Positions 53,403-59,650 of a stretch of DNA of 64,000 bases are shown here, piece by piece. Both the position numbers and the translations under genes were made by a program. This stretch comes from an uncultured Pelagibacteraceae bacterium (GTDB lineage Bacteria > Pseudomonadota > Alphaproteobacteria > Pelagibacterales > Pelagibacteraceae). Positions within the stretch are counted from its first letter, which is position 1. Each line of letters starts with the position of its first letter. The notes beneath the pieces are model-generated. The model was not told where the DNA came from and did not search any database. It saw only the letters and a list, made by a program, of their open reading frames with translations. The stretch lies in contig CACAWY010000003.1 in assembly GCA_902536385.1 (NCBI GenBank), forward strand, positions 1 through 64,000, in the 5' to 3' direction.

Positions 53403-54458
53403 TCATGTTCTTATTCTATTTTTATCATTATCGAATAAATATAACTTATTCTTTGGTAAGTAAATTGTAATATTTTTATCTTTGATATTTTTAGAGCTTT
53501 TTATTCTCATTTCCGTACTATTTATATGTGAGTAAAAAATTCTTTCTGAACCTAAATTCTCAACTAGGTCGATGGTAATTTCTGCTGATATTTCACTTTT
53601 ATAATCAAATGATATATCTTCAGGTCTTATCCCTATAAAAAATTCTTTCTCAAAATTTAAATTTTCAAATTTAATTTCATTATTAAGAAATTTGAATGAA
53701 TTTTTACTGACAATATCTTCCTTTTTGACTTTTAATATATTTATTTTTGGATTTCCTATAAATTCAGCTACAAAAATATTCTTTGGATCATTATAAATAT
53801 CATCTGGATTTCCGAACTGCTCTATATTGCCTTGATTCATAATTACAATTTTATCGGCTAAAGTCATAGCTTCAATCTGATCATGCGTTACATAAAGAAT
53901 ATTACTTTTTAATTTTTTGTGTAATTTTGAAATTTCGACCCTCATTTCTGATCGAAGTGCAGCGTCTAAGTTAGATAGTGGTTCATCAAATAAAAATAAC
54001 TTAGGATTTCTTGTAATAGCTCTTCCAATAGCTACTCTTTGTCTTTGACCACCAGATAATTCTTTTGGCTTTCTATAAAGTAGGTCTTCTATTTTTAAAA
54101 TTTTTGCCGTTTCATTCACTTTTTCTTTAATCTCATCTTTAGTCATTTTTTCAGTTGTTAATCCAAAAGATATATTTTGGAAAACATTCATGTGTGGGTA
54201 AAGAGCGTATGATTGAAAGACCATGGCAATTTTTCTTTTTGAAGGAAGCAAATCGTTTAAGAGTTTATTATCTAAAGTAATTTTACCTCTATCTATTTTT
54301 TCTAATCCTGCTATCATTCTTAAAAGAGTAGATTTCCCGCAACCCGATGGTCCTAATAAAACTATAAATTCACCTTTTTCAACTTTTAGGCTAAATTTAC
54401 TAATTACGTTATTTTTACCGAAAGATTTATCTATATCTTCAAACTTTAAAAAGGGCAT
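53403..54458 (-). CDS. CUT1-type carbohydrate ABC transporter ATPase (MalK/UgpC-like)
   Basis: 351 residues. Walker A GPSGCGKST, signature LSGGQRQR, Walker B LFLFDEPLSNLD, H-loop VTHDQIEAM and a C-terminal TOBE domain with IGIRPEDISF. All motifs intact. It is divergent from the binding protein gene at 54576 over 117 bases. That operon has two permeases and no ATPase, so this is almost surely its motor; it may also serve other CUT1 systems. Confidence 0.92.
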   Translation of the reverse strand: MPFLKFEDIDKSFGKNNVISKFSLKVEKGEFIVLLGPSGCGKSTLLRMIAGLEKIDRGKITLDNKLLNDLLPSKRKIAMVFQSYALYPHMNVFQNISFGLTTEKMTKDEIKEKVNETAKILKIEDLLYRKPKELSGGQRQRVAIGRAITRNPKLFLFDEPLSNLDAALRSEMRVEISKLHKKLKSNILYVTHDQIEAMTLADKIVIMNQGNIEQFGNPDDIYNDPKNIFVAEFIGNPKINILKVKKEDIVSKNSFKFLNNEIKFENLNFEKEFFIGIRPEDISFDYKSEISAEITIDLVENLGSERIFYSHINSTEMRIKSSKNIKDKNITIYLPKNKLYLFDNDKNRIRT

Positions 54459-54575: not shown

Positions 54576-55898
54576 ATGAAAAAAATATTAACATTCATTT
54601 TTGCTTTAACTTTATTAACGTCTAATAGTTTTGCAGACATAACTTTTTGGACTACTGAAGTTCAACCAGCAAGAATGGAGAAACAAATGGAGATGGCTAA
54701 ATCGTTTGAATCTAAAACTGGTATAAAAGTAGAGGTTATACCGGTAGAGGAAAAAGATTTAGGTTCTAGAGCTACAGCAGCTGCAGCTGCTGGAAATCTT
54801 CCAGATGTAATTTATCATACACTTCAATATGTACTACCTTGGGCGGAGGCAGGAATATTAGATGTGAATGCTAACAATGATGTTGTAAAAAGTTTAGGAA
54901 AAAAAACTTTTGCTCCAGGAGCATTGAACATGGCAAAGAAGGGTGGAAAAATTGCTGCTGTACCAGTTGATGGATGGACACAAATGGTTGTTTATAGAAA
55001 AGACTTATTTAAACAAGCAGGTCTTGAAGCACCGACAAGTTACGAAAATATAACAAAAGCTATAAAAGCTCTTTCAGGCGGCGACATGTTTGGATTTGTA
55101 GCTGCAACTAAAACTGATGAAAACTTTATGAGCCAAGTTCTTGAGCACGTTCTTTTAGCTAATGGGGTGAACTTTGTTAAGAAGGGTGGAACAAAAAAAC
55201 AAGGTAAAGCACTTAAAAACTCTTTAGAGTTTTATAAAGTTATTGCTAAAGCTAGTCCTCCGGGAGAATTATTCTGGAAACAATCTAGAGAACTTTATTT
55301 CGCAGGAAAAACACCAATGATAATTTGGTCACCATTTATTATGGATGAATTAGCTGGTCTCAGAGACTCAGCTCCTCCAACAATCAATAGTGATCCGACA
55401 TCACCTGAACTAGCATCAAAAACTGGTTTTATAACTAATTTTAGTGGTCCTAACAATAAAAAGGGCGCTGCTTGGGCAGACGTGAGATACTTCGGTATCA
55501 CAGCTGACGCAGATACTGACGAAGCAAAAAAGTTTGTTGAGTATTCAATGGACGAAGGATACACAAGCACGTTGGCTATCGCACCTGAAGGTAAATTTCC
55601 TGTAAGAAGAGGAAATTCTTCGGATCCAGCTGCATTTACAAAAGCTTGGAGCAAGTTGCCAGTTGGTGTAGACAGAAAAAAACCATTAACTGAACTTTAT
55701 TCACCTGATGTAATTAATAACATTGTTGCTGGATTAGACACTGCAAACAGATGGGGTGTTAAAGAGGGTGAACTTTCTAGAGCATCAAAAATCATTAATG
55801 CTCAGTTCTTGAATAGAATTACTAGAGAATACATTGATGATCAGATAACTGTTGATGAAGCTGTTAAAAAAATTAACGCTGAATTAGCAAAATTTTAG
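54576..55898 (+). CDS. CUT1-type sugar/glycoside-binding protein
   Basis: 440 residues with a signal peptide (MKKILTFIFALTLLTSNSFA). Family 1 SBP features: ITFWTTE start, TGIKVEVIPVEE, AGNLPDVIY, PVDGWTQMVVYRKDLF, and TGGG-like ligand-site region KTPMIIWSPF. Aromatic residues at WTTE, DGWTQ and WSPF may stack on the sugar. Ligand not readable from sequence; the downstream GH63-like enzyme suggests a small glucoside such as glucosylglycerate or glucosylglycerol. GC-rich relative to the permeases. Confidence 0.9.
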   Translation: MKKILTFIFALTLLTSNSFADITFWTTEVQPARMEKQMEMAKSFESKTGIKVEVIPVEEKDLGSRATAAAAAGNLPDVIYHTLQYVLPWAEAGILDVNANNDVVKSLGKKTFAPGALNMAKKGGKIAAVPVDGWTQMVVYRKDLFKQAGLEAPTSYENITKAIKALSGGDMFGFVAATKTDENFMSQVLEHVLLANGVNFVKKGGTKKQGKALKNSLEFYKVIAKASPPGELFWKQSRELYFAGKTPMIIWSPFIMDELAGLRDSAPPTINSDPTSPELASKTGFITNFSGPNNKKGAAWADVRYFGITADADTDEAKKFVEYSMDEGYTSTLAIAPEGKFPVRRGNSSDPAAFTKAWSKLPVGVDRKKPLTELYSPDVINNIVAGLDTANRWGVKEGELSRASKIINAQFLNRITREYIDDQITVDEAVKKINAELAKF

Positions 55899-55945: not shown

Positions 55946-57205
55946 ATGAGCACTACGTTATCAAAAATAGAAAAAAAAACAGCATACACGCTTCTTTTGC
56001 CTGCTGTTTGCTTGGTTTTTTCAATTATTTTATTTCCAATATTTGCAAATATTTGGATTAGTTTCAAAGAAGTCGGACTAAAAGATATAAGAATTCCTGA
56101 GCCCAGGGCAAAAAAAATTGTTAAAAATATTCAAGACAATAATTCTGAGTTAAAAATTATTTATAAATTAAGAAACAGTTCTTTAACTCAGAATATTAGG
56201 GAAGTAAGATTTTCAGATAAATTTCCCAAAAATATTGAACCAATCGATTTAGATACAAGATGTGATTTTAAATCAAAAAAAATTAAATGTTTTTTTGGGG
56301 ATTGGGAGGCAGGTTATCGTGAAAATTTTGAAATTATAATTAAGGATGTTAATAATAATGTTATTAATATTCAAAACATAAAGTCTTACAAGCCAGACCT
56401 AAATGGAAAATCTGACAATATTTTATTGACTACAGAATTTACTCTCAAAAATTTTAAAAGTATTTTCTTGAATAACAATTTTTTTGAACTTTTAATGACA
56501 ACTTTTTACTTTACTTTTTTTGGAACACTTGGCGCTATTATACTTGGAATATTTGCTGCTCAACTAGTAAACCAAAAATTTTACGGAAGATCATTTATGC
56601 GAAGTATACTACTTTTTCCTTATGTAGGCCCTGTTGTTGCTCTGGCTTATACATGGACTCTACTCTTAGATCCAAATAGCGGTACTATAAATTCTCTACT
56701 TGTTAGTTATGGAATTATGGAAAAACCTATAAATTTACTTGGTCAAAAGTATCTAATTATCAATATTTTAGGATTTGATTTTAAACTTAGATTAGCATTA
56801 ACCACAGTTATATTTTTTGAAATTTGGCGATATTTTCCCTTAGCTTTTTTATTTATATTAGCAAGACTGCAAGCTATTCCTAAGGATCTTTATGAAGCTG
56901 CCGATGTAGACGGAGCCGGCCCGTTTAGAAAATTTTTTCATATCACTCTTCCACAAATTACAGCAATTTTATCTATTTTATTTATGATTAGATTTATTTG
57001 GAACTTTAACAAATTTGAAGATATTTTTTTATTAACTGGCGGTGCTTCAGGTACATTAACTTTACCAATAAGTGTTTATCAACAAGGGTTTGCTGTATCA
57101 AATATTGGAATGGGCTCAGCAGTCTCAATAGTAATCGTATTATTACTGATAACTTTTATGATTATTTATTTTAAATTAATTGGAAAGAGGGCAAATGAAA
57201 TTTAA
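55946..57205 (+). CDS. MalF-type permease with an Ig/DUF11-like periplasmic insertion
   Basis: 419 residues, against about 290 for the usual 6-helix form. After the first helix (about 12-38) there is a ~110-residue hydrophilic insertion (about 53-160) before the second helix (about 182-205). The insertion reads like a DUF11/Ig-type unit: IIYKLRNSS, FSDKFPKNIEP, Cys106 and Cys115, FFGDWEAGYRENFEI. The conserved coupling loop LYEAADVDGAGPFRKFF is intact near residue 315. The insertion sits where MalF has its P2 loop, which contacts the binding protein. Confidence 0.9.
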   Translation: MSTTLSKIEKKTAYTLLLPAVCLVFSIILFPIFANIWISFKEVGLKDIRIPEPRAKKIVKNIQDNNSELKIIYKLRNSSLTQNIREVRFSDKFPKNIEPIDLDTRCDFKSKKIKCFFGDWEAGYRENFEIIIKDVNNNVINIQNIKSYKPDLNGKSDNILLTTEFTLKNFKSIFLNNNFFELLMTTFYFTFFGTLGAIILGIFAAQLVNQKFYGRSFMRSILLFPYVGPVVALAYTWTLLLDPNSGTINSLLVSYGIMEKPINLLGQKYLIINILGFDFKLRLALTTVIFFEIWRYFPLAFLFILARLQAIPKDLYEAADVDGAGPFRKFFHITLPQITAILSILFMIRFIWNFNKFEDIFLLTGGASGTLTLPISVYQQGFAVSNIGMGSAVSIVIVLLLITFMIIYFKLIGKRANEI

Positions 57206-58388
57206 ATCTTTAATAATAACATTATTTGCATCATCTATTTTTTTAGCAACAATTATTTGTATATGGACAATAATAGCAACGCTACAAGGTTTAAGTTTCA
57301 CGGCTCTCAACTTTAATTTTAATCTATTACTATCACTTGGACTTACTATAATTTCTATATTTATTGGAAACAAGTTCAATCATCTTTTAAAAATTTTTGT
57401 ATTATCTATATCATTTACAATTTTATATATTTTCTTAAGCAAGAGTTCTCCTCTGTGGTTTTCGGGAGGTATCTTTTTATTAATTTTATTTTTTACTAAT
57501 AAATTAAGAAAATATGATCTCAAATATTTAAATCAAGATTTTATATCTGAAAAAATAGTATTTGAGTTTTTATCTTTATTTGCAATAATATTTTTTGCAT
57601 TAGTAATATTATTTCCTTTTTACATTATGTTTGTTACCAGCTTTAAAACACAGACTGCTCTATTGATTAATCCTCTTGATTTGAGCATTGATTTTTCAAA
57701 AAATATTTTCGATATATTTAAATCATACTTTGTTATTTTTAAAACTTATGATTTTGGTAGATATATTTTAACGAGTTCTTACGTTTCAATAGGAACTGTT
57801 TTAATAACTTTATTATTTGCAATTCCAGCTGCCTATGCGGTAGCAAGATTGAAGTTCTTTGGAAAAAATTTTCTTTCAACATCAATATTGATAATTTATA
57901 TGTTTCCAGCAATAGTACTAGTCATTCCTTTGTACACCGTGTTTAGCCAACTAGGCCTAAGAAATTCAATTGGTGGATTGCTTATCGTCTATACAGCAAC
58001 TACTTTACCTGTAGCGATTTATATGCTTCAAGGTTATTTTAAAAGTATACCTAAAGAAATTGAAGAAGCTGGACTTATCGATGGACAGAACTGGTTTGGT
58101 ATAATTATTAAAATAATTATTCCTCTCAGTTTACCTGCTATCGCTTCAGTATCTTTATATGTGTTTATGATAGCTTGGAATGAATTTTTGTTTTCATTAA
58201 TGTTTTTAGACAATCCTAAAACATTTACATTATCTAGAGCAATAAACCATTTAACCGGTGATGCAGAAACACCACGGCAATATCTAATGGCTGGATCAGT
58301 GATAGTTACTTTGCCGATACTTTTAATTTTTGTATATTTTGAAAAATATTTAGTAAGTGGATTAACGGCAGGAAGTGTAAAAGGATAA
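57195..58388 (+). CDS. MalG-type permease with four extra N-terminal helices
   Basis: Start set at the ATG at 57195, preceded by GAGGG; an in-frame TTG at 57180 is unlikely. 397 residues versus ~280 typical. The first ~120 residues contain about four helices (about 5-25, 44-58, 66-83, 87-99), then a standard MalG-like permease with FPFYIMFVTSFK at the usual N-terminal position, coupling loop EEAGLIDGQNWFG and WNEFLFSL. Overlaps the first permease by 11 bases and the hydrolase by one base. The extra helices have no recognised family. Confidence 0.88.
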   Translation: MKFKSLIITLFASSIFLATIICIWTIIATLQGLSFTALNFNFNLLLSLGLTIISIFIGNKFNHLLKIFVLSISFTILYIFLSKSSPLWFSGGIFLLILFFTNKLRKYDLKYLNQDFISEKIVFEFLSLFAIIFFALVILFPFYIMFVTSFKTQTALLINPLDLSIDFSKNIFDIFKSYFVIFKTYDFGRYILTSSYVSIGTVLITLLFAIPAAYAVARLKFFGKNFLSTSILIIYMFPAIVLVIPLYTVFSQLGLRNSIGGLLIVYTATTLPVAIYMLQGYFKSIPKEIEEAGLIDGQNWFGIIIKIIIPLSLPAIASVSLYVFMIAWNEFLFSLMFLDNPKTFTLSRAINHLTGDAETPRQYLMAGSVIVTLPILLIFVYFEKYLVSGLTAGSVKG

Positions 58389-59650
58389 TGAATAATACAA
58401 TAAAATTTGCAAAAAAAACTTTAATAAATAATAGAAGATCAAATTATACTTTACCTACAAATACTAAACTATATCCAGCTCAATGGAATTGGGACTCAGC
58501 TTTTATTGCTTTAGGTTATTCAAATTTCAATTTAAATTACTCATTTAAAGAGATTGAAACTTTGATTTCAGGACAGTGGGATGATGGAATGATTCCACAT
58601 ATTCTTTTTCATATTAAAGATCTAAATTATACACCTAACTATAAAGCTTGGGGATGTGGTAGAAAAATTTCCTCATCTGGAATAACTCAACCTCCGATAC
58701 TAGCAAGTATTTTAAGGATAATTATTGAAAGACAAAAATTAAAAAAAAAAGAAATAAAAAAATATCAAACCTTAATATTGAAGATTAAAAAATGTTTAGA
58801 GTGGTTTATTAGATACAGGGATCCAAAAAGAACTGGTTTAATTTCTATACTCCATCCATGGGAAAGCGGTTATGACAATTCTCCTTTATGGGACAAACCG
58901 ATGAGTAAGATCAAAATAGAGTCTAAACTTAGTTACAAAAGAAAGGATAATAAGATTGTTAAAAAAAATCAAAGACCATTAAAAATAGATTACGATAGGT
59001 ATGTAACGATCAAAAATCACTTAAGACAATTAAATTATGATCCGAAGAAACTTTACTATAAATCAAAATTTAACGTTGTAGATGTAGGATTTAATTCACT
59101 TTTTTTAAAAGCTTTAAAAGATTTAGATTTTTTACTTAAATTTATAGGTAAAAGTAATTCTACATTAAAAAAATATATTTTTTTAAATGAAAGCAAACTT
59201 ATAAAATTATTTAATTCAAAAAAAATGAAATTTAAAAATAAAGATCTTAAAAATAATACTTCAGTAGAAATACCATCAATAACAAATTTTTTTATGTTAT
59301 TTGCTGATTTAAACAATGACTCAATTAATAAAGGATTAATTAAAAGTTTAAAAAGATATTATAAAAAAGAAAAATATTTTTTTCCTTCAATAAGATCCAA
59401 TCATGAGTCTTTTGAGGAAAAAAGGTACTGGAGGGGACCCGTATGGGTTAATTGCAATTGGATTATTTATCAAGGATTGAAAAATAAAGATAAAAAGTTC
59501 GCAGAAATTATAAGAAAAAAGACTATTAATTTAGTCGAAAAAAAAAAATTTCGTGAATATTATAGTTGCAAGTCAGGCTTAGGAATGGGCGCTAAAAATT
59601 TTTCTTGGACTGCTGCCTTATATCTAGATTTTAAACTTAATAGATCTTGA
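58388..59650 (+). CDS. GH63-like glycoside hydrolase (glucosyl/mannosylglycerate hydrolase type)
   Basis: 420 residues without a signal peptide, so cytoplasmic. (alpha/alpha)6 barrel motifs of the MGH1/GH63 group: QWNWDSAF (32-39), HPWESGYDNSP (156-166), YWRGPVWVNCNWI (347-359) and GMGAKNFSWTAA (399-410). By analogy with mannosylglycerate and glucosylglycerate hydrolases, Asp163 is the likely general acid and Glu390 (FREYY) the base. Coupled by TAATG to the second permease of a CUT1 importer, so it should cleave the imported sugar conjugate into sugar and glycerate or glycerol. Ligand is an inference. Confidence 0.82.
   Translation: MNNTIKFAKKTLINNRRSNYTLPTNTKLYPAQWNWDSAFIALGYSNFNLNYSFKEIETLISGQWDDGMIPHILFHIKDLNYTPNYKAWGCGRKISSSGITQPPILASILRIIIERQKLKKKEIKKYQTLILKIKKCLEWFIRYRDPKRTGLISILHPWESGYDNSPLWDKPMSKIKIESKLSYKRKDNKIVKKNQRPLKIDYDRYVTIKNHLRQLNYDPKKLYYKSKFNVVDVGFNSLFLKALKDLDFLLKFIGKSNSTLKKYIFLNESKLIKLFNSKKMKFKNKDLKNNTSVEIPSITNFFMLFADLNNDSINKGLIKSLKRYYKKEKYFFPSIRSNHESFEEKRYWRGPVWVNCNWIIYQGLKNKDKKFAEIIRKKTINLVEKKKFREYYSCKSGLGMGAKNFSWTAALYLDFKLNRS

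Follow-up and report, generated by a model that had tools for sequence, protein, structure and literature searches.

The P2 domain of MalF is the textbook example of a permease domain that communicates with a binding protein, has an Ig-like fold and is usually seen as a peculiarity of one family. In E. coli MalF, it is a large periplasmic domain of about 180 residues, located just before the conserved permease core. The available part of one report places P2 at residues 91–271 and describes a direct contact of residues 240–249 with MalE (PMC3150292). Another report, in its available part, describes a common cluster of those MalF proteins that have eight helices and in which a large loop separates helices three and four (PMC2246101). 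CUT1 permeases of the UgpA and SugA (LpqY-SugABC) type are another group of close relatives of the protein considered here.

DUF11-type domains are usually found in bacterial surface proteins, and the DUF11 (PF01345) family is known from repeats of long envelope proteins. In the literature on DUF11, MalF P2 and SAR11 or glucosylglycerate transport, consulted mostly in papers available without subscription, no DUF11 domain in a permease was found described.

Hexosylglycerates are osmolytes made by marine cyanobacteria. The available part of a recent paper mentions the use of glucosylglycerate as an osmolyte by cyanobacteria and the presence of glucosylglycerate synthesis genes in offshore SAR11 genera (PMC12636525). 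The enzymes splitting such compounds include Thermus mannosylglycerate hydrolase (TTHA0978; PDB 4wva) and the glucosylglycerate hydrolase of Mycolicibacterium. As far as the available part of PMC6608630 goes, 4wva is indeed the Thermus enzyme, which acts with similar efficiency on both hexosylglycerates, and the mycobacterial hydrolase, whose conserved substrate and catalytic residues are given there, does not split glucosylglycerol.

The Permease and Its Operon

The window studied, a stretch of 64,000 nucleotides from an uncultured Pelagibacteraceae bacterium, contains a gene of a sugar ABC permease subunit 1 (UgpA/SugA/MalF-like; positions 55946–57205, forward strand), whose product of 419 amino acids has a predicted Ig-like insert. 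Pfam family PF00528 (BPD_transp_1) matches residues 197–416, scoring 58.5 bits (cut-off 26.4), and the closest PDB chains are the SugA-type 7cad_A and 8ja7_A, followed by MalF. The core and the EAA region are like those of UgpA- and SugA-type CUT1 permeases, which do not carry the insert. The MalF model (NF008232) gives 72.4 bits over the core only, far from its equivalog cut-off of 392. About six transmembrane helices are predicted without extra N-terminal ones, whereas E. coli MalF has two more N-terminal helices.

Helix 1 covers approximately residues 13–40 and helix 2 residues 180–209, with a long stretch between them. The membrane orientation was derived from the positive-inside rule and from the side on which the EAA motif lies; a lysine-rich N-terminus and an EAA motif near residue 317 place the loop, by this reasoning, on the periplasmic side.

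The gene lies in a cluster with a periplasmic substrate-binding protein (54576–55898, forward strand; SBP_bac_8 / SBP_bac_1, with matches to sugar-binding proteins of the PDB), a MalG-like permease subunit 2 (57195–58388, forward strand; PF00528 at residues 214–393, hydropathy and comparison), an MGH1-like (GH63-type) hydrolase resembling mannosylglycerate/glucosylglycerate hydrolases (58388–59650, forward strand; PF22422, E 8.7e-78) and a divergently oriented ATPase subunit of the UgpC/MalK type (53403–54458, reverse strand; NF008653 over its cut-off). For permease 2, the ATG at 57195 is favoured as the start over the mechanically called TTG at 57180. Its N-terminus (57195–57539) has about 115 extra residues with roughly three hydrophobic segments, which E. 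coli MalG does not have. An extension of this size also occurs in seven operons of other Alphaproteobacteria, with little conservation of its sequence (6–14% identity versus 56–62% in the core).

A conserved order, consisting of a LacI-type/substrate-binding-domain regulator, binding protein, permease 1, permease 2, MGH1-like hydrolase and ATPase, was found in Ruegeria, Maritalea, Limimaricola, Thalassospira and several further genomes, as judged by annotation and profile or by the starts of open reading frames. The SAR11 locus has its ATPase divergent and no adjoining LacI-type gene. A glycerate kinase gene adjoins the cluster in Maritalea and Limimaricola (L157:11755-13002 and L207:2936-4213), which is a strong hint that the imported compound releases glycerate.

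The window hydrolase is closest to TTHA0978 (PDB 2z07 and 4wva, E 2e-91) and then to mycobacterial enzymes (about 1e-47). Motifs Y29-W33-W35-D36, ITQPP, G-Y-D, R-x5-Y, Y-W and FREYY, matched by spacing rather than by alignment to the mycobacterial protein, correspond to residues listed in the available part of PMC6608630. The enzyme resembles the Thermus and Mycolicibacterium hydrolases in sequence and motif spacing and differs from them in being linked to an ABC importer and in scoring 273.4 bits against the curated glucosylglycerate hydrolase model NF047898, under the equivalog cut-off of 550. We infer from its sequence only that it is hexosylglycerate hydrolase-like. Taken together, the binding protein, the permeases, the MGH1-like hydrolase, the ATPase and the glycerate kinase of two relatives indicate uptake of hexosylglycerate osmolytes, so that mannosylglycerate or glucosylglycerate is most likely the imported compound.

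In Paroceanicella profunda (L209:2613-4313), the cluster has no gene annotated as MGH1-like. Its neighbourhood contains a divergent sucrose-phosphorylase-like enzyme, which fits an alpha-glucoside, and a gene of the dihydroxyacetone kinase family. A phosphorolytic route may operate there.

Extent and Conservation of the Insert

The inserted loop, delimited by length comparison and AlphaFold2 models, occupies residues 45–165 of permease 1 (56078–56440, forward strand). The span from F40 to T166 amounts to 127 residues in the window permease, 124–129 in 49 insert-bearing permeases and 170 in E. coli MalF, and to only 14–19 in six near permeases without the insert (from Nonomuraea, Haladaptatus, Halomarina, Roseicitreum, Antarctobacter and Rhizobium); the duplicates L132, L133 and L134, equal to L119, L120 and L122, were dropped from this comparison. 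These differences correspond to a net insert of about 110 residues, the number that the initial annotation had given for the extra segment between the first two helices.

All of the motifs noticed at the outset are present in this segment, namely N77-S78-S79, S90-D91-K-F-P94-K-N-I97, C106 with C115, and G118-D119-W120-E-A-G123-Y-R-E-N-F128. Across 80 aligned Pelagibacteraceae proteins (79 and the window's own; L034, cut at 396 residues, was left out), C106, C115, Y73, R76 to S79, P94, G118 and W120 are invariant. A second alignment comprised 25 loops, i.e., the window's and 24 of the 25 non-SAR11 loops (L138, near-identical to L136, was omitted), with identities to the window down to 25%. L45, D47, R49, Y73, R76, N77, P94, C106, C115 and L160 are invariant in it. 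In the motif R76-N77-S78-S79 (56171–56182, forward strand), the first two residues are therefore fixed in all of these loops and both serines are conserved in at least 90%. W120, invariant in SAR11, is L, F, V or another residue in part of the non-SAR11 rows.

Over 22 non-redundant rows, the mean identity to the window is 69% in the loop versus 87% in the core. This faster evolution of the loop, combined with its fixed residues, points to a domain with a preserved frame and a free surface. Invariant residues, near-constant length and the pLDDT values of the predicted models argue that the insert is neither a chance feature nor a variable linker, and pLDDT and conservation together rule out a disordered spacer.

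Predicted Fold and the Cysteine Pair

The AlphaFold2 model of the full permease 1 has a mean pLDDT of 54 and a pTM of 0.32, with a poor membrane part and values of about 75–87 in the insert. Modelled alone, the insert reached a pLDDT of 90.1 and a pTM of 0.81 and contained nine strands plus a short helix. The folded beta-sandwich part was assigned to residues 51–156 (56096–56413, forward strand) on the basis of strands, pLDDT and VIA-align 2 Z-scores up to 11.1. With VIA-align 2, solved beta sandwiches were found at Z 9–11 over 94–116 residues, including AP2 mu2 (Z 11.1, 2.6 A, 109 residues), macroglobulin receptor-binding domains (Z 9.9, 2.9 A, 105 residues), CBM2 modules (Z 9.5, 2.6 A, 94 residues) and, also near, integrin domains. 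We class all of these matches as beta sandwiches that are Ig-like in a wide sense. A Foldseek search with the insert model gave 0.001 as its best E-value, and the SAR11-only loop profile matched PDB chains at E 0.36 and worse; the 25-row profile had no match among them.

Accordingly, the insert is predicted to be an Ig-like beta sandwich. The outcomes named beforehand as contrary to this idea were a fold of another kind or a disordered loop, and the prediction came out as a beta sandwich with a pLDDT of 90. Since the nearest solved folds include adaptor, macroglobulin and carbohydrate-binding modules, the fold alone names no partner.

Exactly two cysteines occur in all 49 loops from Pelagibacteraceae and other Alphaproteobacteria, spaced by nine in 48 and by ten in one. 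In the predicted model, C106 belongs to strand 106–109 and C115 to strand 112–120. If the hairpin turns at residues 110–111, the two stand opposite each other, which makes a cross-strand disulfide between C106 and C115 (56261–56290, forward strand) plausible, as had been suggested from the pair itself. DsbB was found in 20 of the 21 genomes searched, including the window's own.

Relation to DUF11

The resemblance to DUF11/Ig-fold repeats proposed in the initial annotation is borne out in part. The predicted fold and the scores of orthologues speak for it; the window's own loop misses the Pfam threshold, with no DUF11 match at E≤1 or at E≤10, and single SAR11 loops likewise gave none. Among seven distant orthologous loops, three exceed the PF01345 cut-off of 24.6 bits (24.8, 30.9 and 35.8), three score lower and one does not match at all. 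In the 25-loop alignment, hits to DUF11 at E≤1 occur in 20 rows and hits to DUF7933 in 18, and the window's row has neither. A match to DUF2443 (E 0.02, under the cut-off of 25) appeared in 5 of 23 rows and in none of the seven distant orthologues, and was attributed to chance.

Twenty-two DUF11 domains, all well covered and with full flanks, were picked by hand from 30 stored PF01345 loci as an independent set, with which the loop profiles were compared by hhalign. The non-SAR11 loops matched this set in register (probability 96.4, E 1e-9), with N77 at the N of N-x-G, D91 and P94 at D..LP, and C115 and G118 at C..G. All loops together gave a probability of 94.8; the SAR11-only loops gave 0.9 with E 0.06, again in register. 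For each of these three profiles, none of 100 column shuffles reached the observed score. SAR11 loops matched the other loops with a probability of 99.9. Through this match and the DUF11 scores of the orthologues, the SAR11 domain appears as a divergent DUF11 relative: the sequence relationship is a distant one, seen via orthologues only, and the domain's own score stays below the threshold. In comparison with DUF11 repeats of envelope proteins, whose profile and landmarks (N, D..P and C..G) it shares, the insert is a single copy that lies within a transmembrane permease and has R-N-S-S and linker residues specific to the permeases.

Distribution and Descent

Relatives of the permease were collected by scanning genome contigs; the best 80 of 442 were kept, and all of them are from SAR11. 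Some match was found in 203 of the 297 genomes of the order. Among the matches listed, 103 genomes have a full-length permease (identity of at least 72%) and six more have a partial or broken one. The presence of the permease across the order is patchy. In one genome of the same genus (G191:C20), the gene looks broken into overlapping pieces with stops, so that some SAR11 lineages seem able to do without the system.

A profile of the SAR11 loop only matched 9 of the 385 class genomes searched, the window's own being one of them; in the other eight, all matches lie in permeases, which are 43–73% identical to the window's. A 14-row loop profile matched 20 of 398 Pseudomonadota genomes. Sixteen of these are alphaproteobacterial and contain full-length loop matches; a check of the loci stored for them showed permeases. 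In the other four (G744, G808, G814 and G848), the matching proteins are DUF11 proteins and not permeases, that of G744 having been so called by its overlap with matches of a separate PF01345 search. A third loop profile matched 5 of 250 genomes of the class. Holders of the insert include Limimaricola variabilis, Ruegeria conchae, Maritalea myrionectae, Thalassospira marina and Paroceanicella profunda.

These orthologues in other Alphaproteobacteria rule out a trait strictly confined to SAR11 or to oligotrophs. The idea that the domain matters at very dilute substrate is weakened by them too, since the same domain in Roseobacter-type bacteria and Thalassospira makes a dilute-substrate adaptation unnecessary as an explanation.

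In a tree of helix 1 and the core, calculated with the insert excluded and 12 near-copies left out, a branch supported at 100/96 separates all 37 insert-bearing rows from 7 outgroup rows, among which several branches are long, leaving the exact sister group unsure. The insert-bearing permeases are one supported branch. Three near insert-free permeases (L158, L159 and L210) are actinobacterial and haloarchaeal, with a core identity of about 41–42%. Two haloarchaeal ones lie near genes annotated as glucoamylase.

Proposed Function and Alternatives

In our opinion, with somewhat better than an even chance of being right, the insert is a DUF11-superfamily domain that was captured once and serves as a MalF-P2-like docking or gating platform for the binding protein of a hexosylglycerate importer. 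According to this proposal, an ancestor of the alphaproteobacterial transporter would have captured the beta sandwich in the first periplasmic loop of a CUT1-type permease. The domain would project from the membrane beside the permeation pathway, dock the cognate binding protein and take part in gating, as P2 does in E. coli MalF, the cysteines probably closing the hairpin and stiffening it. The loaded binding protein would be held or read by the domain, and a signal would pass to the helices via conserved linkers, L45-x-D47-x-R49 before the domain and L160 after it. The imported mannosylglycerate or glucosylglycerate would then be split by the neighbouring hydrolase into hexose and glycerate.

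Contact with the binding protein is, by analogy with MalF, the most likely function of the domain. Since the R-N-S-S patch and the linkers are kept across the permeases and in part fall outside the DUF11 signature, they may be regarded as the best candidate contacts. The existence of near permeases without any such domain counts against the proposal. A more specific version, which we put forward tentatively and would rate at somewhat less than an even chance, is that a DUF11 domain was recruited once, independently of MalF P2, as a binding-protein sensor tied to glucosylglycerate/mannosylglycerate uptake in SAR11 and other marine Alphaproteobacteria.

A structural or assembly role of the domain is unlikely, if still worth weighing; it would anchor the transporter to envelope proteins or pair with subunit 2 and would not take part directly in the transport cycle. 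Such a role would suit the usual occurrence of DUF11 domains as repeats of long proteins and the extra N-terminal hydrophobic module that subunit 2 has in all seven compared operons of other Alphaproteobacteria. However, the insert is a single domain of near-constant length with invariant linkers at both ends, located at the loop that contacts the binding protein in MalF, and this speaks against such a role.

Descent of the domain from MalF P2, with permease 1 being merely a divergent MalF, has a small probability. Relative to the core, insert and P2 have the same position, the match of permease 1 to the MalF model starting at model position 264, directly past P2. This agrees with the topological place assigned to the insert at the start, and MalF is among the closest solved permeases. 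However, the insert, of about 110 residues against some 180 in P2, has no detectable sequence relation to it. The comparison of the loops with 16 MalF P2 sequences by hhalign (L162, an empty or short piece, was dropped from the P2 set) gave a probability of 0.2–0.3, and 17–30 of 100 shuffles scored as well, so the relation sought by this check was not found. A MalF P2 query matched 16 of 299 genomes, the window's own not among them, permease 1 has no extra N-terminal helices, and the tree, with its long branches, groups insert-bearing permeases with insert-free ones and not with MalF. Among the matches listed by Foldseek and VIA-align 2, there is no MalF chain, which says nothing on a shared fold.

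Finally, an extra CBM2-like module binding a sugar or a cell-surface glycan, suggested by the structural matches 3ndy_E (Z 9.4) and 6qfs_A (Z 9.5), is improbable and was rejected, because the aligned loops contain no conserved aromatic platform (no exposed aromatic residue is conserved family-wide, W120 being replaced in part of the non-SAR11 rows) and a dedicated binding protein already binds the small glycerate glycoside inferred as the substrate.

Conclusions

The docking of a binding protein by a DUF11-superfamily domain, as preferred here, implies that this domain may do a job like that of MalF P2 with unrelated parts. Its occurrence in Roseobacter-type and Thalassospira bacteria argues against a purely dilute-ocean adaptation. 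If the proposal is true, a second, unrelated domain at the place of P2 would mean that such gates were acquired more than once, and it would become testable whether domains of this kind determine how strongly the binding protein binds to the transporter. The operon is a candidate route of hexosylglycerate uptake in a bacterial group that ranks among the most abundant in the sea.
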